Virus record (IMG/VR): IMGVR_UViG_3300031718_000010
Coordinates: 1-62,291 of that record
Strand: one strand, 5' to 3'
Length of the DNA stretch: 62,291 nt
From: a virus
Shown in pieces: positions 40,821 to 59,972 of the stretch. Made by a program: the position numbers and the translations under genes. Numbering within the stretch: the first letter of the stretch is position 1; every line of letters begins with the position of its first letter. The notes beneath the pieces were generated by a model. It did not search any database and was not told the origin of the DNA. It saw nothing but the letters and a program-made list of their open reading frames with translations.

Positions 40821-41013
40821 ATATTTCAACTATCCTCATTATCGTTACTCTAACCTTTGGGGCTTTGGGACCCTTACTTTTATTAAGTGATGTTGCTGTT
40901 ATTTTAGCAGAAATACAAGCGCCTGTCAACTTGTTTATTGTTGGACCTAATAGATAGTGGCGTCCCTCACCATGAGAGATAACTTTTATATATTTCCCTT
41001 TCTCTAATATCAT
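40810..41013 (-). CDS. Small hypothetical protein between polymerase and helicase
   Basis: 67 residues, basic, mostly strands. Overlaps the polymerase gene by 4 nt at its start and the helicase gene at its end. No motif recognised; presumably a replication accessory. Confidence 0.55.
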   Translation of the reverse strand: MILEKGKYIKVISHGEGRHYLLGPTINKLTGACISAKITATSLNKSKGPKAPKVRVTIMRIVEIYDE

Positions 41014-43667
41014 ATATTAACCTCATTCATCCCATTCTTATTATCATCATCCATAGGAGCTAGATTACTCCCAACCTTAATCTCAAATCCAATATCTAAT
41101 CCCCCAAGCTCAGCAATAGGCTTATTAAACTGCCTAGCCATACACTCAATAGCACTATCCACAAGATGATTGGGCGTCTCGAATACGAGTGAGTCGTAAG
41201 TTGGTAGACGCATAAGGTTGCCAATATTAGGGATAACAGACAAGGCAAGGATGTCCTCACGTTGAATAGCCGCTCCATCACTCTGCGGCCTAAACGCAAT
41301 AGCCCGTTTCGCATCCCCTTCATGGTCTACCTCCCATTTATTAGCTCGTTTATTCATCTTATATATAGGGCCATAGAAATAATGTCTATATTGAAAGCTA
41401 TTATCTAGATATTTCTTACCCCAGACTTCTTCTAATGTAGCTTTGTGATAACTTCTAATAGCCTGTCCAGCTGGGCTACCGAACAGGATATCCTGAACCT
41501 TCTGAGCACTATACTCAGTAGGGAAATACTCTTCATATTCGTCATGCATACCATAGGGTGACAATAGATATGACGAACCATGTACACACCGTTTCCATCC
41601 TTCATAGTCATCACCTCCTCTTTTCTTAAACTGTTTAAGTAACTTTTTAAGTTCAGGTAATGGGGTATCTCTAATAACAGCCCAAGGGACTTCATCCCCT
41701 AATACAATCGAACCAAGATAACTATGAACCCCAGCCTTAGCTAGTTTGATATATTCAGGACTCTTAGCCCAATAACCAACTAATACAGCCTCTAATCCAC
41801 TTCTATCTATCTCAATTAGCTTACATCCTTCTTCTGCGATGATAGTCCTACGAAATAAACGAGCTAAATCATTTCGTTTGGGGATATTACCAAGATTTAC
41901 ATTTCTACTTGAGCTTCTCCACGTTGAGGGATGGAACCCATACTGGCTGTGTGCTCTGTCATTCTCATCTAAAGGCCAATTATATGTTGATAAGAACTTT
42001 AATTTCTGCTTGTAAGAAACGCAATGACGAAATATGGGATGCTTAGTTAACCTTTTGAGATACTTAGCTTCAGTTGATTCTCTATCATCACCCCTCGCTT
42101 TTGGGATTTTAACCTTTAACTCCCTCATTAGGTCTAATAAGTCAGGCCTGCTATTAGGATTAAACGGTTTAGTCCTAATCCAAATAGGCCTCATTACTTG
42201 TCCACCAGCTATAACTAATGACCCATCCTTAGTCTTAGCAGGGGCCTCACCAGATACTGTCTTAGTAGCTTCAATATATATACGTTTGGATATAGGGGTA
42301 TTAGGGCCAGCTATGGACTTTTTAAGTGGCTTGAATGATTGCTCTATTTTAATTAATTTAGCTGGCAATAACTCTTGAACCTTATTAAACTCAACCTTAG
42401 CATCAGTTTCCATTGCAGCCATAAATGGAACCCTAGCTTCCTTATCAACCTTTACACCCGCAACACCCATATTTACATAAATAGGGTCAACCTTAACGCA
42501 ATGACTCCAAAACCTATCCCATCTACCATCCTTAATTAACTGTGCCTTGGTCCCTTCATATACTCCCATCTGTACGGCGTTATCCATTCCATTATAAAAC
42601 GCAGGACGTTGGCTATGTAGATGCTTCCACGGTTTACCAGAATAGAAGAACGGGGCTGCGAAGTTGAGGGCTTTTGGTAGGTCTGAGTATAACCAGTGCC
42701 ACGCCCACATAGCGTCAACAATCTGAACATCCGGGTGTAACTCGAACCCATTACTCTTGAGCCTAGGTAAGTCGTAGTTTTTATTCCAGAAGGAGATAAC
42801 TCTAGCTTTACGGATAAGCTCTTTAGCTCGTCGGATGTAATCCCCATCAAACGGGAAAGATACGCCTTCCCACTGTCTGATAGAGAATCCCATACGTAGT
42901 ATTTGATAAGATGGGTCATCCTCACTTTCCTCCTCGTTCTTCCCTTGTAATGACCTAGGAGTTTCAATATCACACATTAGAAAGGGGATATCCCCTCTAC
43001 CTGGGAAGTTGATATAAGCTGGAGGGGGGTCCTCTATTATCTTAGTCTCAGTTGGCTTATATGAGCCATTAGCTATCTCAACAGCCCTAGCTAGAGAGAG
43101 GATGAAAGCAATAGTATACTTCCAATTCCCTTGTATTATAGATGACGGATGGAAGGTAGGGACCGCAGGTATTCCCTCGTAAACCGATGGGATGACATAG
43201 GCGTGATTGCCTTCAATTCCCTCGAAACCTGTGAGCCTCCGTAGGGCCACGTTTCCAAGCGCAATAAACACCTTAGGCACACGTTTGGCGACAAGGTTAT
43301 CCAGGTACGGCTTACACTGTTTCTGTGCATATTCGGCTTCTGGATATTTCCAAGGCTCATCATTCATCCCTAGTGCTGGAGGAGAGCACCAATAGCTATT
43401 AGTAACAGTAAACTCCTCCCTTGTCAATCCTCTTTTAGATAATATAGTATCAAGCCATCTGCCACTAGCACCACTAAAATTGCGATTAGCCAATATCTCC
43501 TCTTTCCAAGGAGAATCCCCAACGATACATATACCATTAGAGCCGCTACCATCAGGCTCAATCCTACGCCCACCAGTATGTTGGTAATGGCATTTATCAC
43601 AATAAGGCCCTTGGACTAGGGGATTACCTTGATTAAAGATAGGTAATTCAACTTTAACTTTAGCCAT
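41010..43667 (-). CDS. DNA polymerase, family A, with N-terminal uracil-DNA-glycosylase-like domain
   Basis: 885 residues in three parts. Residues ~20-200: a UDG superfamily fold (VGDSPWKEE for motif 1 and TFHPSSII for the HPS motif) with a Cys/His cluster at the front. About 228-400: 3'-5' exonuclease (CDIETPRS, NKNYDLPRL, DAMWAWHWLYSDLPKALNF). About 560-870: polymerase with motif A EIDRSGLEA (~615), motif B KRCVHGSSYLLSPYG (~690) and motif C YDSLVFE (~824, Y-D-S in place of the usual H-D-E). Main replicase. Confidence 0.88.
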   Translation of the reverse strand: MAKVKVELPIFNQGNPLVQGPYCDKCHYQHTGGRRIEPDGSGSNGICIVGDSPWKEEILANRNFSGASGRWLDTILSKRGLTREEFTVTNSYWCSPPALGMNDEPWKYPEAEYAQKQCKPYLDNLVAKRVPKVFIALGNVALRRLTGFEGIEGNHAYVIPSVYEGIPAVPTFHPSSIIQGNWKYTIAFILSLARAVEIANGSYKPTETKIIEDPPPAYINFPGRGDIPFLMCDIETPRSLQGKNEEESEDDPSYQILRMGFSIRQWEGVSFPFDGDYIRRAKELIRKARVISFWNKNYDLPRLKSNGFELHPDVQIVDAMWAWHWLYSDLPKALNFAAPFFYSGKPWKHLHSQRPAFYNGMDNAVQMGVYEGTKAQLIKDGRWDRFWSHCVKVDPIYVNMGVAGVKVDKEARVPFMAAMETDAKVEFNKVQELLPAKLIKIEQSFKPLKKSIAGPNTPISKRIYIEATKTVSGEAPAKTKDGSLVIAGGQVMRPIWIRTKPFNPNSRPDLLDLMRELKVKIPKARGDDRESTEAKYLKRLTKHPIFRHCVSYKQKLKFLSTYNWPLDENDRAHSQYGFHPSTWRSSSRNVNLGNIPKRNDLARLFRRTIIAEEGCKLIEIDRSGLEAVLVGYWAKSPEYIKLAKAGVHSYLGSIVLGDEVPWAVIRDTPLPELKKLLKQFKKRGGDDYEGWKRCVHGSSYLLSPYGMHDEYEEYFPTEYSAQKVQDILFGSPAGQAIRSYHKATLEEVWGKKYLDNSFQYRHYFYGPIYKMNKRANKWEVDHEGDAKRAIAFRPQSDGAAIQREDILALSVIPNIGNLMRLPTYDSLVFETPNHLVDSAIECMARQFNKPIAELGGLDIGFEIKVGSNLAPMDDDNKNGMNEVNI

Positions 43668-48990: not shown

Positions 48991-50367
48991 CTACTTAACC
49001 TCAGTTAAATTGGTGGGCTGGCTAGGATTTGAACCTAGGACCGTCGGCTTATGAGGCCGCTCCTCTGACCTCTGAGGTACCAGCCCTTCTAGTTCAGCTG
49101 GATGGTTGGGAACCCTTGCACGCCACTTAGATTCATCTGTAGGGTCGCTACTGCCCCAGCATATATCTGAATAGGTACAATTATAACAATCCCATCCAGT
49201 TGTCATTGGAAAACTATAATCCAAAGCCTCAAACGCCCCTTGTTTATTATTATCAAGGAAATAGCCATCAACATAAGCAGCCATATCTTGTCTAACCTTC
49301 TCAGTTATTAATGTTTGCCTTTTCCATCTCTCAACCTGATAGGCATCCCTAGTTATAGGTGGGAGCGAGAGGAAATAACTTTCCAGCGTTGATATATCAT
49401 TCCTGACAAGATAATCAATCCAGCCATAAACTCCACCAGGATAACAATCTCTAACGGCCCTTTTACGGAACCCTTTACCAAGTGTATGATTTCTATTACC
49501 AGGGCACTTAGCGCCATTACCCATAACGTGAGGAGCAGTACAAGTGTAATCCCACGATGTAGCATACTCTAATCCTCCCTGTTCACCTGGAAGGCTAACA
49601 TCAGTATTATCCTTGACCCAAGCATAGATAAGCATATTATTATACTGATAGTATCCAGACCCCTTAGGCCATTCGGTCTTATTCCCTTTAACTAGCCCTT
49701 CAATTATAACACCATCTACTTTCATGCCCAGACGGGATTCAACAGCAATAGCCTCAGTTAAGGTTTGCATATCCACTTGGAATGACTGTCTCCATTGCTC
49801 GTTTGGATTAGAGGTAGACTTGAAGTTAATAACCATAGCCATTCCACTAGCCTTGGACCTAGCTAATAGGTCTGTTCGGGTTAATAATCTAACCTCAGCC
49901 TTATCATTATCATCCCCAATCAACCATCCAATAGATTCCTCTTGCTCAATCCCTCCCTCGACAGGGATATAATTAGCTAATAACCTAGGATAACCAACAA
50001 GACTCCAGCCATATACCAGCCCTTTAACAAGGTCAATCTCTTGTAATAACTCGAATTGTAACCTCGCCATTAATTCAGGTTGGATATTAGAGTCAGATAC
50101 AATAGGGAAATATTCCTCATAATATTGTTTCGCTGCCAAATCAGCTGATTCCTTTGCTGATTTACCTAATATAATCCCCTCTATCCCTTCATGGATGAAT
50201 CTACCTGTTATGAATGGCCAATATGGATTGATATCCCTTACTTTAACTATCCCTATCCCTAGGAATCCATAGTTCCAATAGTATTTACGGGCACACTCTC
50301 CTGCACACTCAAGCCTTGAACGGTCAAAATGATACAATGGAAGGCCACCACTATTTTTGCTTATCAT
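48991..50367 (-). CDS. Cas4/RecB-like PD-(D/E)XK nuclease
   Basis: 458 residues. Starts SRLECAGECARKYYW (first Cys ligand), then GRFIHEGIEG, the active site RTDLLAR … MVINFKSTS (D and E/K of the PD-(D/E)XK motif), and a C-terminal Cys set (YNCTYSDIC with earlier CYPGG) that could hold an iron-sulfur cluster, as in Cas4/AddB exonucleases. Probably a recombination exonuclease. Its last ~30 codons run through a tRNA gene. Confidence 0.72.
   Translation of the reverse strand: MISKNSGGLPLYHFDRSRLECAGECARKYYWNYGFLGIGIVKVRDINPYWPFITGRFIHEGIEGIILGKSAKESADLAAKQYYEEYFPIVSDSNIQPELMARLQFELLQEIDLVKGLVYGWSLVGYPRLLANYIPVEGGIEQEESIGWLIGDDNDKAEVRLLTRTDLLARSKASGMAMVINFKSTSNPNEQWRQSFQVDMQTLTEAIAVESRLGMKVDGVIIEGLVKGNKTEWPKGSGYYQYNNMLIYAWVKDNTDVSLPGEQGGLEYATSWDYTCTAPHVMGNGAKCPGNRNHTLGKGFRKRAVRDCYPGGVYGWIDYLVRNDISTLESYFLSLPPITRDAYQVERWKRQTLITEKVRQDMAAYVDGYFLDNNKQGAFEALDYSFPMTTGWDCYNCTYSDICWGSSDPTDESKWRARVPNHPAELEGLVPQRSEERPHKPTVLGSNPSQPTNLTEVK
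49011..49086 (-). tRNA. tRNA-Met (CAT)
   Basis: 76 nt with encoded CCA. Acceptor GGGCTGG/CCAGCCC (7 bp), D-arm CCTC…GAGG, anticodon loop CTCATAA, T-arm CTAGG-TTCAAAT-CCTAG. The CAT anticodon could also be a lysidine-type tRNA-Ile. It lies entirely inside the 3' end of the nuclease gene on the same strand. Confidence 0.92.
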
Positions 50368-50746: not shown

Positions 50747-50835
50747 TGGTGCGGGAGGTGAGAGTCGAACTCACAAGGGGATTGCTCCCAACTGATTTTA
50801 AGTCAGTCTCCTCCGTCCAATCGGGATGCTCCCGC
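50747..50835 (-). tRNA. tRNA-Leu (TAA)
   Basis: 89 nt with encoded CCA, class II with a long variable arm. Acceptor GCGGGAG/CTCCCGC, anticodon stem ACTGA/TCAGT around CTTAAAA (anticodon TAA), T-arm GTGAG-TTCGACT-CTCAC. TTA is a natural codon to supply for an AT-rich genome. Starts 3 nt after the closing stem of the 199-nt structured RNA. Confidence 0.95.
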
Positions 50836-52521: not shown

Positions 52522-52708
52522 CTGGGTCAGTTCCATTATACCTAACCCAGCTTTCATTACCACAATTAGGGCATGTATGTTCACTAGTCACCCCAGCACA
52601 GTTATCAGAGTGCTGCCATACATGCCCACAGTTGTTACATTTATGCTTATGGATATCCTCCTCCTTAATTGGTATTCCCAGTAGGTTCCTGAGATGCTTG
52701 GCTACCAT
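52484..52708 (-). CDS. Zinc-ribbon protein, probable near-cognate start
   Basis: 74 residues if started at ATG 52708, which lies inside the upstream gene and has no ribosome site. A strong AAGGAGGAGG follows that gene's stop, and the only in-frame codon at the right distance is ATC at 52654. That would give 56 residues opening with HKHKCNNCGHVW and a second CPNCG, a clean zinc ribbon. Last gene downstream of the ubiquitin-like cluster. Confidence 0.55.
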   Translation of the reverse strand: MVAKHLRNLLGIPIKEEDIHKHKCNNCGHVWQHSDNCAGVTSEHTCPNCGNESWVRYNGTDPVSEPNPYLFRLP

Positions 52709-53087
52709 CCACGGCATTAGGTTCCTCCTGAGATTCCACCGGAGCATTATCACACATACCCTCATGGGCAAAGGATTGATTACAGTGAGGGTTACTACAT
52801 TTCCGTTCTACAACCTGACCTAATGCCTCAGTTACTGGGTCACTTGTCATAGTAACTGTAGAAGGCAAGCTAGTCTGTTCACCTGAGATAACCTCAACAA
52901 CCTCATTTTGAACCTGTAATGTAAATATCCCATTCGCCAACCGTCTACCCTTTAACTCCCCACTCCGCTTAATAGCCAAAGCCCCCTTTCTAAGGGCAGA
53001 TTGCCAGTTAGGGGCTATGACTAAAACAGCCACCTCACCTTCAACCCTTGGAAATGTCCCAGCTACACGCCATTGTCTATTTGCCAT
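52665..53087 (-). CDS. Hypothetical protein with zinc knuckle, beside the JAMM gene
   Basis: 140 residues. Strand-rich N-terminal domain (QWRVAGTFPRVEGEVAVLVI), then CSNPHCNQSF … C, a short Cys/His motif, and an acidic disordered tail. Starts 3 bases after the JAMM protease stop, so it is co-translated with the ubiquitin-like system. Function unknown. Confidence 0.55.
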   Translation of the reverse strand: MANRQWRVAGTFPRVEGEVAVLVIAPNWQSALRKGALAIKRSGELKGRRLANGIFTLQVQNEVVEVISGEQTSLPSTVTMTSDPVTEALGQVVERKCSNPHCNQSFAHEGMCDNAPVESQEEPNAVDGSQASQEPTGNTN

Positions 53088-53090
53088 TTT

Positions 53091-54500
53091 CTAATTACCT
53101 CCATTAGTATGCATACTATCAGCCATCTCAGCTAGTCTAACCTTTCCTAGCTGACTTAATCCATCTCCTCCACAAGCGGGACATATCCTTGTAACTGATA
53201 CCTTAGCTCCCGTTCTATACATAAGCTCAGTAACATACTTATCCCCTTCACATACCTCACATGTCTCCTCAGACAAGGTATCATCAGGGTCATCAGATAC
53301 TTGACTAGTTATAATCCCCTCACCTGAAGGAAATGTAAGTTGTTTAGGTTCATTACCCTTAGCTGACTCAGCTATCCTTTCCAACTCAGTTAATACTCTA
53401 GCCTCTGTACTGGTTATCCCTGGAGCCTCCCAAAACGATTGACACTGGCAGTTATCATCTAAGCACATCCCTGCTAGATTGCCCTTAGGGAAATTAGACT
53501 TTTGATAATCAGTCCTATAATGGTCCCCAAAGGTATGGCCACATTTACACATCTTACTATTCCTACCATCCTCCCCAGTTGAGCCAGTCGTCTGGGTCGT
53601 AGTCGTCGGTTGGCTTGTATCCGTTTGAGTAGGTTGAATACCCTTTGTATTGTCCTGGGGCGGGGTAGATACATTTAGATTGGGAGTATGAGCCTTCACC
53701 CTGCCCTGTTCTAACATACTCCCTTGCTGGAAAGCAAGTTCAAGCGCCTCAGTTGCCTTAGACTTAGGCATGACTCCATCAGTATAAACTGTAGCGTCAT
53801 ACTTAGCATACTCCCCACACTTTAGCTTAAGTCTGGAGACAGCTTTATACTCAGCCCTATTATTAATCACAATCTCAACAGGCCAGTTGCTATGTGCGAT
53901 ATCTGTCCCTGAGAAGAAAACACCCATTCCAACATGAGAATGAATAGCCCCGATAGTCCCAGCCTTAGGCGTCACACCTGTTGGGATATCAACATGCGCC
54001 CCACCTGCTGTCTGAGGGGGATGATAATAGCTTTCAATAAGATAAACTGGCTCATTTTTATCATCAACCGTCAGCTTACCCTTTAATAGAGCAATCCATT
54101 CAGTGTTAATATCCTTAGCTAGTTTAAGGAATGTCTGCCACATCAATACAGGAACAAGGACATAAGGAACCTTAGGATTAAGGGGACACTTATCAGTTAT
54201 TTCCTTATTCTCAGCACAGACGAATACATGCTCATCCTTAGGATTAACTACCCTAAAGCTATAGGGGTTACTGTTATCCTTATGACTATGGCCATTAGGT
54301 CTAGCTGTAACAGTTACACCTAATGTATGATTAGATGAGCGAGACTCACCTGTATAGCCATTAGCCCCATTAGCCTCCCTTCTCATCCTTTCAATCATAT
54401 CCATATCCCTAACGGTAGCCTTACCATTAGCGAATCTAAGTAAAGCAGCGTTATATTGATTATTAGCTTTACGTAACTTACGCTCACTAGACTTGCTCAT
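53091..54500 (-). CDS. JAMM/MPN-type metalloprotease (deubiquitinase-like) with zinc ribbon
   Basis: 469 residues from ATG 54500 (GGAGG 8 nt upstream); the ATG at 54506 is too close to it. The catalytic set is complete: E134 (NTEWIALLKG), H187 and H189 (HSHVGMGVFFSGTD), S197 and D200, i.e. E…H-x-H-x7-S-x2-D. Residues ~300-345 hold a Cys cluster (CKCG…CLDDNCQC) and ~420-460 a DnaJ-style CEVC…CPACGG. In such operons the enzyme matures or removes the ubiquitin-like tag. Overlaps the E1-like gene by 14 nt. Confidence 0.85.
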   Translation of the reverse strand: MSKSSERKLRKANNQYNAALLRFANGKATVRDMDMIERMRREANGANGYTGESRSSNHTLGVTVTARPNGHSHKDNSNPYSFRVVNPKDEHVFVCAENKEITDKCPLNPKVPYVLVPVLMWQTFLKLAKDINTEWIALLKGKLTVDDKNEPVYLIESYYHPPQTAGGAHVDIPTGVTPKAGTIGAIHSHVGMGVFFSGTDIAHSNWPVEIVINNRAEYKAVSRLKLKCGEYAKYDATVYTDGVMPKSKATEALELAFQQGSMLEQGRVKAHTPNLNVSTPPQDNTKGIQPTQTDTSQPTTTTQTTGSTGEDGRNSKMCKCGHTFGDHYRTDYQKSNFPKGNLAGMCLDDNCQCQSFWEAPGITSTEARVLTELERIAESAKGNEPKQLTFPSGEGIITSQVSDDPDDTLSEETCEVCEGDKYVTELMYRTGAKVSVTRICPACGGDGLSQLGKVRLAEMADSMHTNGGN

Positions 54501-55560
54501 CTTCATTTACCTCCTCTGTTTCTATATAATCATTCTCAGGAAGATTAAGGCTTCTCTCAAACTCAGGGTCAGTCTCGGCAATCTGGTCATGTAAGGTATT
54601 AGCATCTGAACTTAGATAAGACATATGCTCCTCTAATACCTTCTCTTCTTCCTCATTTAACGGTAATGGAGTAGCCTTAGCAATTAACTCCTCCGCTATA
54701 GGTTTAGCCTCAGCTAATCCTAGATTAGGGTAGCAATGCCTTAAATGTCTAATTAGATTAATCAAATTACCCTCAACTAATCTATGACACTTAGGATTAG
54801 GACAGCTAATCATAGGATATCTAGGCTTAACTTGATTGCCTTCAGCCATACTAGCTATCTTAAGGAAGCCGAATACCTCAGCTATATTATTATAAACTGG
54901 CCCCTTATCCCAGTCTACTAGATGGCTAACAGATGGAACGGTATTATGTAATATATAATAGCTAGCTACTGAACCCGCCATCATACAAGGGCCAACATGA
55001 ACAGGAACAGTTTGATAACCTGGATTATCCTCTAGCTCAGTTGAGAACTCAGGTGGGGCTGGGGATAATGTCCACCTCTCCCCATCTGCCCCTACTTCTA
55101 GATATTTAATCCCCCCATCCTTAGCCCACTGATAGCACATCTTCCTAGACTTAAGGCTATCAGTACAACAAACAAGCCACTCAACCCTATTTTCATTAGC
55201 TGAGCCAATAGATGGGTCAAACATCCCCCTAGCATTGATATTATCAGCCTTTGGCCTTAGTAATCTAAGCCATTTAGCTAATGCAACAGACTTTAACTCT
55301 CCAACACTAGACTCAGGTAAGGGAAAACGATTAAGATTATGAATAGATATAGTATCCCCATCATATATAGTTAAATCCTCAACCCCACCTAATGTAAGGG
55401 CTAAGGCTACCCAACATCCTACTCCACCTGCTCCTATTAACATGACAGATGGCTTAGATAATCCTAAACTAGATTGCCTCTCATATAATGGGTCTATCCC
55501 TTGTTCAACCTCAGCTATATTAGCTGTGTCAACATCAGGTAATACAAACTCATCAGGCAT
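54487..55560 (-). CDS. E1-like (ThiF/MoeB/UBA) adenylating enzyme
   Basis: 357 residues. Nucleotide-binding GAGGVG at 43-48 in a Rossmann fold, D67/D69 in IYDGDT, the arginine motif HNLNR (R78) and G-x2-K (K90), the E1 adenylation signature. VGPCMMAG holds a candidate catalytic Cys. A C-terminal CPNPKC…HLRHC finger and acidic tail follow. It should adenylate the C-terminus of a ubiquitin-like protein, encoded two genes upstream. Lies between the E2-like and JAMM genes with 13-bp and -14-bp spacing. Confidence 0.85.
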   Translation of the reverse strand: MPDEFVLPDVDTANIAEVEQGIDPLYERQSSLGLSKPSVMLIGAGGVGCWVALALTLGGVEDLTIYDGDTISIHNLNRFPLPESSVGELKSVALAKWLRLLRPKADNINARGMFDPSIGSANENRVEWLVCCTDSLKSRKMCYQWAKDGGIKYLEVGADGERWTLSPAPPEFSTELEDNPGYQTVPVHVGPCMMAGSVASYYILHNTVPSVSHLVDWDKGPVYNNIAEVFGFLKIASMAEGNQVKPRYPMISCPNPKCHRLVEGNLINLIRHLRHCYPNLGLAEAKPIAEELIAKATPLPLNEEEEKVLEEHMSYLSSDANTLHDQIAETDPEFERSLNLPENDYIETEEVNEDEQV

Positions 55561-55573
55561 GTTATCCCCTTAT

Positions 55574-57118
55574 CTATCCCCTAGCTGTAGCTGGGACATT
55601 AAACGTATAATTCAACTCCTCCGCATCACTTTCAATCCTATCCCAACTAATCCTAGGATTATTCGCAGGCCTACCCTCATTAGACCTAATTAGATATTGT
55701 TCAGGTGTGGTAGTAGCATCTGGATTAGGATAGCTAGCATTCCCAGTTATTAGGTTCTTAACCATATCTGGTAATTGTTCAGCATATAATGGATAGAAGA
55801 CATTAAGAGCATGAGATAACGGGCTATTAAAATTAATAACCCTCATCCCCCTGGATATCCCTCTTTCCACAGCTACTAGATTATCCATATTAATAACCCT
55901 AGCTGGCATACCTTGTAATTCCATGCATGTTCCAGTTGTAGTATTATGAACAGTATGCCAGATATCCCCTCTAACCTCATTAACAGCATATCTCCCATCA
56001 GTGGATAACCTAAGCCACATCTGCATTGGCCTACTACTATAATAAGCCTCATCCCTACCTGGGATACGAATAGGATTCCAATGAACCGTCCCCCTCCACC
56101 TATCAACCCTATATCTAATATCCTCTAGATATGTGCTAACCCTTAAGCCAATCCACCATCTCTCATCCATTAGCTTAATAGGCCTACCAGATTGTCTAGC
56201 CCACTCAGGCGCTTGATTAACCATGCTAGCCCTAAGTTGCTCAACTTCCCTTCTAATTGTCTCAACCCTCCCCTGTGCCTCACTAACCATAATCCTAGCA
56301 TCCGTTTGGGCCTTATCCAATTTAGCCTGTACCTCAATCTGAGCTATCCCTTTAGCCTTATCCCTAATATGCCTATAGATATTAGTATTATCCCTCTCAC
56401 CTGTTGGGACTAGCTTAAATGACTTCCCACCTACAAATATAGTAGCTGGTTGTGCCCTTAATAGAAAGCTATCATCCTGTGATTGAGGAACAGGTGCCTC
56501 ACTACTCGCTTCAGCTGTAGCCCTAACCCAGGTGAATGCCCATGCTTGGAGGGTGTCGTGTAATACCTGTGTTGGTAGCCCTTGCTCTAATGCTTGTTGG
56601 AGATAATAATCCGTCCTACGCCTACGGCTATGCCTACCACCTAATATCCTTTTCCACTCAGGAGGTAATAGGGATTTAATTACATTAATCTCAGGTAGGG
56701 CCATATTAGAGTTATTACGAGTAACCCTAATATACCATAAGCCATAATTATCCCTACGAACTATGACTTGGATAACATCAGTTGGTGGCTCAGGCTGCCT
56801 AAGCTCATTAGCTAATTGATTCGTATCAAGAGTAGCCATATTTCCTCTCCATTCCCCATTAATAAACTGATAAGCTGCAACCTGTCTATTAGCAGTTCCT
56901 TCTCTTATTATAACCCTATCTATATCATCTAGCCTTGTGACTTCCTCTATCCCTCTAGTCTCAGGGTTATACCTAAATTGTCTACGATTAGTCACTATAT
57001 TAAACTCTCTTGTATTAGGTAATGCAAATACCTGTAATGTATCTAACTCCTCAGGTAGCATCCCTCTAGAGATTAACATCTGCCTAATATTATCTACTGT
57101 AGTCATTCTCTCAAGCAT
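55574..57118 (-). CDS. Large protein with putative E2-like domain
   Basis: 514 residues (57106 is an alternative start). A strand-rich N-terminal region, then helices, a coiled coil at 255-300, and a C-terminal part (~320-450) with the strand LRLSTDGRYAVNEVRG followed by WHTVHNTTTGTCMEL: an H-x2-H…C arrangement (H388, H391, C398) like the 'HPHV…C' active site of prokaryotic E2-like proteins. By position, between Ubl and E1 genes, the E2 role is expected. Sequence evidence alone is moderate. Confidence 0.5.
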   Translation of the reverse strand: MLERMTTVDNIRQMLISRGMLPEELDTLQVFALPNTREFNIVTNRRQFRYNPETRGIEEVTRLDDIDRVIIREGTANRQVAAYQFINGEWRGNMATLDTNQLANELRQPEPPTDVIQVIVRRDNYGLWYIRVTRNNSNMALPEINVIKSLLPPEWKRILGGRHSRRRRTDYYLQQALEQGLPTQVLHDTLQAWAFTWVRATAEASSEAPVPQSQDDSFLLRAQPATIFVGGKSFKLVPTGERDNTNIYRHIRDKAKGIAQIEVQAKLDKAQTDARIMVSEAQGRVETIRREVEQLRASMVNQAPEWARQSGRPIKLMDERWWIGLRVSTYLEDIRYRVDRWRGTVHWNPIRIPGRDEAYYSSRPMQMWLRLSTDGRYAVNEVRGDIWHTVHNTTTGTCMELQGMPARVINMDNLVAVERGISRGMRVINFNSPLSHALNVFYPLYAEQLPDMVKNLITGNASYPNPDATTTPEQYLIRSNEGRPANNPRISWDRIESDAEELNYTFNVPATARG

Positions 57119-57445
57119 GATTATCTAACTCTCAAGGATTCTAGTTTAATTTTCGACCTTAGGGGCTACTACCACAGTGAAGTCCTAAGCCCTCACCGTT
57201 GTTAAACTAGAATCCATGACAATTAAATAATAAGGGGATACTTAGCCCATCTATCCGTACTGTTTCAGACTACAGACAGGTTACGAGATAAACAGTAATC
57301 ACCACTAATGCATCCCCTTACCTAATACTCTCTACTCTCTAATATTGATACCTGTCTTATATGACTAAGACGAGATAGCCCATAATAAAAGAGAGTAGAG
57401 TATCATCAAAGGAACCGTTGTAAACTCCCGTAAGTTATTGATAAC
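57119..57445 (-). ncRNA. Three tandem large hairpins in the Ubl-E2 gap
   Basis: This 327-bp gap holds no gene but three successive stem-loops. H1, 57136-57215: perfect 14-bp arms, inner CTTAGG/CCTAAG. H2, 57231-57320: 9-bp arms, inner ACTGTTT/AAACAGT. H3, 57330-57400: 11-bp arms, inner GTCTT/AAGAC. Each is 71-90 nt with an outer stem, an internal loop and an inner stem. They could be separate small RNAs processed from the operon mRNA or control elements for the E2-like gene. Confidence 0.65.
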
Positions 57446-57454
57446 TCAGGAGTT
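57423..57454 (-). other. Hairpin over the stop codon of the Ubl gene
   Basis: AACTCC…GGAGTT encloses GTTAT-TG-ATAAC, spanning the Ubl stop codon (57446-57448). No U-tract follows, so it is not a standard terminator; possibly an mRNA stabiliser or processing site. Confidence 0.45.
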
Positions 57455-57733
57455 GCCGCGGGTGTCCTTTGCGAACACTTCAAGGCTATGTGCCCCTGCC
57501 AACGAACCCGCAGCCTCAGTAGCCGTAACCGGGACACCGTTGACGCGAACAGAATATGACTTCAACCCAGCATCCCGCGCCAAAGCCATAGCCGCGTCAC
57601 CAATGGTTCCAGTTGCAGCAATCTGGCCAGTAACCTGACCATTGACGATTGTCTTAACCTGTGCCGGAGCCGCAGCCTGTCTAGGAGTAGCTGTCCGCCC
57701 AGCTGCCTTGCTAACTTTCTTCTTAGTTGCCAT
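57446..57733 (-). CDS. Ubiquitin-like beta-grasp protein
   Basis: 95 residues: a K/A/P-rich flexible N-terminus (1-25) then a compact beta-grasp pattern. Strands VKTIVN and QVTGQIAATG, helix TIGDAAMALARDAGL (43-57), strands YSVRVNGVPV and HSLEVFAKD. Ends TRGNS, so removal of two residues would expose a C-terminal glycine, the usual JAMM/E1 substrate form. GC-richer than its neighbours. It heads the E2-E1-JAMM genes, which makes it the likely conjugated modifier. Confidence 0.72.
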   Translation of the reverse strand: MATKKKVSKAAGRTATPRQAAAPAQVKTIVNGQVTGQIAATGTIGDAAMALARDAGLKSYSVRVNGVPVTATEAAGSLAGAHSLEVFAKDTRGNS

Positions 57734-59363: not shown

Positions 59364-59783
59364 TCAATTACCTCCATTGGGTATTGGTATCACCTCAATT
59401 ACCCTATCAGCAGGGATAGAGCAATAGCAATTATAGGCTGCCTTAGAGCCTATATAATCTGGGTCAGGCTTTAACTCAGCCATCTTATCCTCTGGTATAT
59501 CCACCTTAACTAGGACAGGGGTTATATCCCCATCTAACCTAGGCTGGCCATCCCTACGTTTCCATGAGAAATCAAATAGGTCATATACCTCACCTGGGTT
59601 AACTTGTGAATAGGCTGACCTAATCCAAGCAAAGCTAGTGGCCATATCTTTATCAGGGGTTAGGTATATCCCATGAGGAATAGGGATATCCTTAACACGG
59701 AATGACCTATCAGGCATAGGCTTAATACCCTCAACTAGGATATTATCAGCATAAGCCTTAATCGTCCCATGATACATAATCAT
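59364..59783 (-). CDS. ADP-ribosyltransferase-fold protein
   Basis: 139 residues, GGAGG 7 nt before the ATG. The front, MYHGTIKAYADNILVEGIKP, and GIYLTPDKDMATSFAW match the H-G and Y-L-T-x…A-x2-F-A motifs of ART-fold enzymes (H5, Y40), with strands PVLVKVDIP and CYCSIPADRVIEVIPI closing the fold. Such phage proteins modify host proteins with NAD. It precedes the ubiquitin-like genes, a pairing known from other Ub-type systems. Confidence 0.6.
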   Translation of the reverse strand: MIMYHGTIKAYADNILVEGIKPMPDRSFRVKDIPIPHGIYLTPDKDMATSFAWIRSAYSQVNPGEVYDLFDFSWKRRDGQPRLDGDITPVLVKVDIPEDKMAELKPDPDYIGSKAAYNCYCSIPADRVIEVIPIPNGGN

Positions 59784-59972
59784 AATCTACCCTCCATTGG
59801 GGTTAGGTTATTTAGGTTGCCATCACAATGCAGCAATAAAAGCGAATAGCAGCCCATTAGAGCAACAATCGGCCAGCGGTCACGTCATTGTGCCACCTAA
59901 CGCGATATAATTGCTCTAACGCGCTGCTATTAGCGCGTGATGCCATCTGACATGGCATCCGTGAATCAAATA
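59784..59972 (-). ncRNA. Structured non-coding gap with an 87-nt bipartite hairpin
   Basis: 59845-59931 folds as AATAGCAGC/GCTGCTATT (9 bp), a 3x3 internal loop and TTAGAGCAA/TTGCTCTAA (9 bp), with an inner GGT-CAC…GTG-ACC arm. Alternative stems ACGCGCT/AGCGCGT (59919-59938) and GATGCCAT/ATGGCATC (59939-59959) lie beside it. GCGATATAATT here recurs at 60734-60744, and GCGGTCAC and ATTGTGCCA recur near 61000-61104. No gene in these 189 bp. Confidence 0.65.

Follow-up and report, generated by a model that had tools for sequence, protein, structure and literature searches.

The known ubiquitin-like conjugation systems of bacteria act against phages. What, then, is a set of such genes doing in a phage? 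The question is raised by IMG/VR virus record IMGVR_UViG_3300031718_000010, a tailed phage of 62,291 bases; the window analyzed here is the whole of that record. Its tailed-phage markers include a terminase large subunit, a P22-like portal, a major head protein, a fusion of uracil-DNA glycosylase to DNA polymerase (UDG-PolA), and a Dda-like helicase. An earlier note, made from the sequence alone, had claimed four minus-strand genes at 53091-57733 encoding a ubiquitin-like modifier (Ubl), an E2-like protein, an E1-like enzyme, and a JAMM protease. The four open reading frames (ORFs) are all present at these coordinates and on this strand, and the phage-encoded four-gene set, which resembles the ubiquitin machinery of animal and plant cells, is a confirmed observation. 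We propose, with a probability of about two in three, that these genes form a cassette for the reversible, ubiquitin-like tagging of proteins; a phage that tags proteins for its own cycle would, if this is true, differ from the bacterial systems. The cassette consists of the following features:

57446..57733, minus strand: Ubl, the ubiquitin-like modifier, 95 residues (AF2, Foldseek, tails of orthologs)
57119..57445, minus strand: structured RNA spacer in the interval between Ubl and E2-like genes (z -6.6, dinucleotide shuffles)
55574..57118, minus strand: E2-like protein, 514 residues (invariant His/Cys, single Cys, low-confidence model, CBASS E2 profile)
54487..55560, minus strand: E1-like adenylyltransferase, 357 residues (Pfam ThiF, PADLOC E1-E2, C192)
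53091..54506, minus strand: JAMM/JAB metalloprotease, 471 residues (catalytic residues aligned, Prok-JAB)

The JAMM and E1 genes overlap by 20 nucleotides, 13 nucleotides separate the E2-like gene from the E1 gene, and 327 separate the Ubl gene from the E2-like gene. The set goes beyond chance: four further phage contigs carry these genes side by side and in this order, with protein identities of 18-50%. These contigs belong to divergent IMG/VR phages (L001, L005, L006, and L007), which together with the window constitute group I; the order of the cassette is the same in all five.

The motifs claimed for the E1-like enzyme, G43AGGVG48, H74NLNR78, and K90, are all found, and Pfam ThiF matches at 2e-22 as a single domain covering residues 34-158 of 357. 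Among defense models, the PADLOC E1-E2 models (CBASS Cap2) match it at 4.8e-16, and its structurally solved relatives include eukaryotic E1s, ThiF, MoeB, and UBA5. In an alignment of the E1s of 14 phages, the glycines of the GAGGVG motif, Asn75, Lys90, and Asp134 are conserved, and C192 is kept in 13 of the 14; this cysteine, which lies in a VGPC motif, is a plausible candidate for the thioester site. The C-terminal extension of the enzyme resembles a zinc finger, reading C-x4-C...H-x3-C in the window and C-x2-C-x12-H-x4-H in L001:7974-9005.

The modifier had been described as a 95-residue beta-grasp protein ending in TRG-NS, and this description held. The AF2 model, built from two sequences, is a beta-grasp with a core pLDDT of 81-90 and the order strand-strand-helix-strand-strand-strand, and the sequence ends ...AKDTRGNS. 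Foldseek places SUMO-2/3, ISG15, and Caldiarchaeum ubiquitin at the top of its PDB matches, with probabilities of 0.97-1.00 but E ~6e-3 and TM ~0.5. The C-termini vary across group I: L001 ends exactly at ...AKETRG, L005 at ...AKDVRGN, and L006 at ...TKDQRAVWLI, while L007 carries a long acidic tail, VA|TEPTAE..., in place of RG. In other words, RG is present in the window, L001, and L005, with RA in L006 and VA in L007. A tail that varies directly after the end of the beta-grasp is the pattern expected of a trimmed modifier; the predicted mature end in the window is ...AKDTRG, with NS removed.

The protease call also stood, with a shift in numbering: counted from the listed ATG, the catalytic residues are E136, H189, H191, S199, and D202, two higher than first given. 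They align with those of CBASS Cap3 and of a cyanobacterial JAB, and the E...HxH...S..D signature is complete. Prok-JAB matches at 9e-4, under Pfam's cut-off, and a PDB profile search with a two-sequence JAMM alignment returned no JAMM match. The retention of the protease in L001, although the Ubl of that phage already ends at RG, suggests a role in deconjugation. The C-terminus resembles a DnaJ-like CxxCxGxG zinc ribbon (0.0016, below cut-off), which is kept in L001.

The E2-like protein comprises a variable N-terminal part, a coiled coil at ~242-301, and a candidate UBC domain at ~305-460 that holds H391 and C398. In the alignment of the five group I phages these are the sole invariant His and Cys of the protein, and C398 is the only Cys among the 514 residues in the window. 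The H-x2-H...C motif claimed at 388-398 survives in part: H388, H391, and C398 are present, and relatives keep H391 and C398 but not H388, the position of which is Val in L001. L005, L006, and L007 read LPH-x6-C, and the E2 domains of plasmid CBASS Cap2 proteins read VPHISGSRFC and WPHAMASGLC. In the best local profile alignment with CBASS E2s, the H and C fall in register and the match continues into the helix that follows. Permuting the columns equalled its score in 6 of 300 and 4 of 200 trials (p ~0.02), which is suggestive, though no proof, of E2 kinship. The low-confidence AF2 model gives the secondary structure b-b-b-b-[H..C]-a-a-a, a UBC-like order. Prok-E2_B and Prok-E2_D do not match in the window, and PDB profile searches with E2-like alignments found no E2. 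The earlier note had allowed that the protein might instead belong to an unrelated virion family; no virion family matched. The invariant His and Cys, the UBC-like order, and the weak CBASS E2 profile match make an E2-like role plausible, and we infer a UBC fold.

How far does the set extend among phages? The first patterns, for the E2-like protein alone and for JAMM alone, found nothing, and scans of bacterial genome contigs for E1 and JAMM returned no relative. A short JAMM core alignment recovered 16 loci in IMG/VR; at the more distant ones JAMM adjoins E1, and where the contig was read through, upstream genes encode a candidate Ubl together with a His/Cys protein. E1 searches of the phage collection gave ~80 records, including crAss-like phages, which are common in the gut (crAss001 among them), phages of Flavobacterium psychrophilum, jumbo Xanthomonas phages, and a 595-kb phage. 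In the E1 tree, 13 of the 14 phage sequences form one clade (support 91/93); the sampled comparison sequences, from CBASS, multiubiquitin, and MoeB/ThiF, all lie outside it. The E1 of the 595-kb phage is the one phage sequence outside the clade, on a long branch.

In crAss001, gp79 is Ubl-like (KKIKSGA motif, tail of ~130 residues), gp78 has an HSH...C motif, gp77 is a JAMM protein, and gp76 is an E1 that carries the annotation "thiamine biosynthesis protein"; gp78 and gp79 are candidates by position and motif. Profile comparison found no link between them and the E2-like protein and Ubl of the window. The jumbo Xanthomonas phage PhiXhv-12 (L024:3736-7612) encodes a Ubl-like protein ending in GG, an 892-residue protein with HPHM...HGSLCLG, and an E1; no JAMM is annotated among the three. 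The local match of the HPHM...HGSLCLG protein to the CBASS E2 profile beats 200 of 200 permutations. By the same comparison, the E2-like profile of group II, the distant relatives, does not outscore permutations when set against CBASS E2s.

Other loci are more irregular. The 595-kb phage LR756511 (L025:5669-7594) has a 158-residue JAMM near its E1, with a 214-residue protein between them. In Flavobacterium phage Fpv1 (L023:3710-6002), an opposite-strand endonuclease gene separates a short ORF from a JAMM ORF that starts MIHSHNTMQVFFSGTD, which suggests a JAMM gene split by insertion. A match in MT835529 (L026) was discarded, as it resembled bacterial MoeB contamination.

The RNA spacer of the cassette is the most structured of the 16 intergenic regions in the window. 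Its 327 nucleotides fold with z -6.6 against 100 dinucleotide shuffles, and the spacers at the same position in L001 (L001:6409-6714, z -7.1) and L005 (L005:5220-5514, z -3.7) are also structured. The three show no clear sequence conservation, and no Rfam family matches the spacer. It may raise the level of Ubl over that of the enzymes. A second structured intergenic region lies at 59784-59972 (z ~-5 on the minus strand).

The genes around the cassette speak to its possible targets. Two lie next to it or downstream:

52665..53087, minus strand: small gene after JAMM, with a gap of 3 nucleotides (L001 has a similar gene behind its JAMM gene)
48991..50367, minus strand: PD-(D/E)XK nuclease, downstream of the cassette (PDDEXK_1, 2.2e-8)

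Every group I phage has a PD-(D/E)XK gene downstream, with L001, L005, and L006 above the cut-off and L007 just below. The UDG-PolA fusion, in which the polymerase is of family A, occupies 41010-43667 on the minus strand of the window; the same fusion is found at L006:12682-15090, near the cassette, and an AAA ATPase is near the cassette in L005 and L006. In the crAss-like relatives, a primase, a uracil-DNA glycosylase, a Holliday resolvase, and a PD-(D/E)XK nuclease surround the set. The neighborhood is one of replication and recombination, and targets among replication and recombination proteins are therefore favored. The window also carries two phage tRNA genes on the minus strand (49011-49086 and 50747-50835; Met and Leu) and, at 59364-59783 on the same strand, a 139-residue protein with weak matches to ADP-ribosyltransferase and RNA 2'-phosphotransferase families.

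Direct support extends to the gene content, the motifs, the predicted Ubl fold, the conservation of the set, and a mostly phage-only E1 clade. From these, the cassette would operate as follows. JAMM would trim the two residues beyond RG, and E1 would adenylate the exposed C-terminal carboxylate of the Ubl. The Ubl would then pass, through presumed thioester steps, by way of C192 of E1 to C398 of the E2-like protein, which would join it to lysines of target proteins; JAMM could remove it again. The targets would most likely be phage replication and recombination proteins, or host proteins that act on phage DNA, and the structured spacer may keep the Ubl in excess over the enzymes. A wider proposal is less likely than not, though far from remote: that complete Ubl conjugation systems form a phage-specific lineage, found in divergent phages from crAss-like gut phages to jumbo phages, that reversibly modifies phage replication and recombination proteins as a viral counterpart of the control of DNA replication by SUMO and ubiquitin.

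Several observations weigh against protein tagging. The E1 of L006 is without the candidate cysteine; the glycine is absent from the Ubls of L006 and L007, and RG from that of L007. No match in Pfam, NCBIfam, PHROGs, or PDB names the 514-residue protein an E2. Structure prediction, which the earlier note had proposed, gave a beta-grasp for the Ubl, but for the E2-like protein, modeled from two sequences, it gave a pLDDT of 38, unfit for fold search. Comparison of groups I and II by hhalign left both the E2-like proteins and the Ubls unlinked. No E3 and no degradation machinery were identified beside the cassette, and the replication neighborhood is an association, not proof of a role in replication. 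The 514-residue protein may instead be a phage-specific scaffold or substrate, with conjugation proceeding without an E2, as with archaeal SAMPs. This possibility is compatible with protein tagging and has a real, if minority, chance: a long coiled coil, a strongly divergent sequence, and the want of fold or family evidence for an E2 favor it, against the invariant His and Cys, their UBC-like spacing, and the CBASS E2 register of the best local alignment.

The main rival to protein conjugation is a sulfur carrier, in which a ThiS/MoaD-like Ubl, trimmed by JAMM and adenylated by E1, would form a thiocarboxylate that thiolates a small molecule, tRNA, or phage DNA. The QbsE/QbsC/QbsD thioquinolobactin pathway is the model for this, and the fact that some phages modify their own DNA counts in its favor, as do the compact ThiF/MoeB type of the E1 and the missing cysteine of L006. 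Bacterial trios of Ubl, E1, and JAMM serve such pathways (Iyer 2006, PMC1779556). We consider it unlikely, however: the E1 has no rhodanese domain, the genes beside the cassette include no identified sulfurtransferase or desulfurase, all five phages keep a fourth gene whose His and Cys are invariant, and L001 keeps JAMM with a Ubl that needs no trimming to reach RG. Slightly less probable again is counter-defense, where the Ubl would tag host defense proteins, or JAMM would strip host Ubls such as BilA and thereby protect virions. According to PMC12660748, Bil operons mark phage particles with a tag (Hor 2024, as cited there), and the JAMM proteases of Borg elements are believed to act in such counter-defense. 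Stripping needs JAMM alone, however, and these phages retain the whole conjugation machinery, Ubl included; moreover, its replication and recombination setting and its retention across divergent phages, crAss-like ones included, look more core than a sporadic anti-defense gene. The earlier note had suggested counter-defense or a superinfection weapon; we found no evidence for either, the neighborhood in group I and crAss-like phages being one of DNA replication and recombination. Derivation from type II CBASS or Bil for defense or superinfection exclusion against competing phages is very improbable: the matches of E1 among defense models are mainly to CBASS Cap2 (E1-E2), but no CD-NTase or effector was recognized nearby, the phage E1s have their own clade, and the location in a replication cassette recurs in crAss-like phages.

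If protein tagging is correct, phages may possess a tagging system of their own that has escaped notice, and the odd annotations "thiamine biosynthesis protein" and "metalloprotease" in crAss-like phages would be explained. Candidate versions in the cultured crAss001 and Flavobacterium phages provide laboratory phage-host pairs in which testing is possible now. A search of open-licence papers turned up no earlier description of a complete phage set, and one may exist elsewhere. Searches of Yutin 2021 and Iyer 2021 for E1 and JAB gave no hit; the sole relevant passage on ubiquitin in Iyer 2021 concerns eukaryotic viruses that target host ubiquitination.

How does the cassette compare with known systems? 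With type II CBASS Cap2/Cap3 it shares the E1 Rossmann domain, the JAMM motif spacing, and a PH-x6-C motif like that of the Cap2 E2. It differs in having its own Ubl gene, in an E1 that the tree places apart from the CBASS sequences, and in separate E1 and E2-like genes in place of the fused Cap2 E2-E1, although Vibrio L034 also has them separate. Membership was rejected, as no CD-NTase or effector was recognized among the neighbors scanned around the cassette.

Kinship with Bil, which the earlier note had raised, was not borne out. BilABCD has the same gene set of Ubl, E2, JAB, and E1. However, the cassette described here is phage-encoded, BilA has two Ubl domains whereas the window Ubl has one (95 residues), and BilD combines an inactive and an active adenylation domain whereas the window E1 has one ThiF domain. 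The CEHH motif of BilB consists of Cys, Glu at +6, His at +8, and His at +13 (PMC11354881). The window protein, which reads C398-MELQGMPARVIN, does not match it. With all three features wanting, Bil membership was rejected.

PRTRC, or Iyer type 6d, likewise encodes Ubl, E1, E2-like, and JAB proteins in separate genes. The conserved His precedes the Cys in the phage E2-like proteins and follows it in type 6d E2s (PMC1779556). PRTRC_ThiF matches at 5e-4 with 19.4 bits against a cut-off of 144.75, and PRTRC_A matches relatives at 0.056-0.075, far below cut-off; with family cut-offs so far from reached, this membership was rejected as well.

Within phages, the Ubl/JAB pairs described in PMC1779556 are those of lambda-like tail assembly alone (TAPI and TAPK). 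They resemble the cassette as a phage-encoded Ubl with a JAB peptidase, but they are tail genes without E1 or E2, whereas the window cassette lies outside the structural block and has both an E1 and an E2-like protein. The remaining comparison is with crAss001 gp76-gp79. There, gp79 has a long C-terminal tail, gp78 has another His/Cys spacing, and JAMM precedes E1; nevertheless, Ubl-like, E2-like, JAMM, and E1 genes adjoin as in the window, the E1 belongs to the same clade, and the set resides in a replication cassette.

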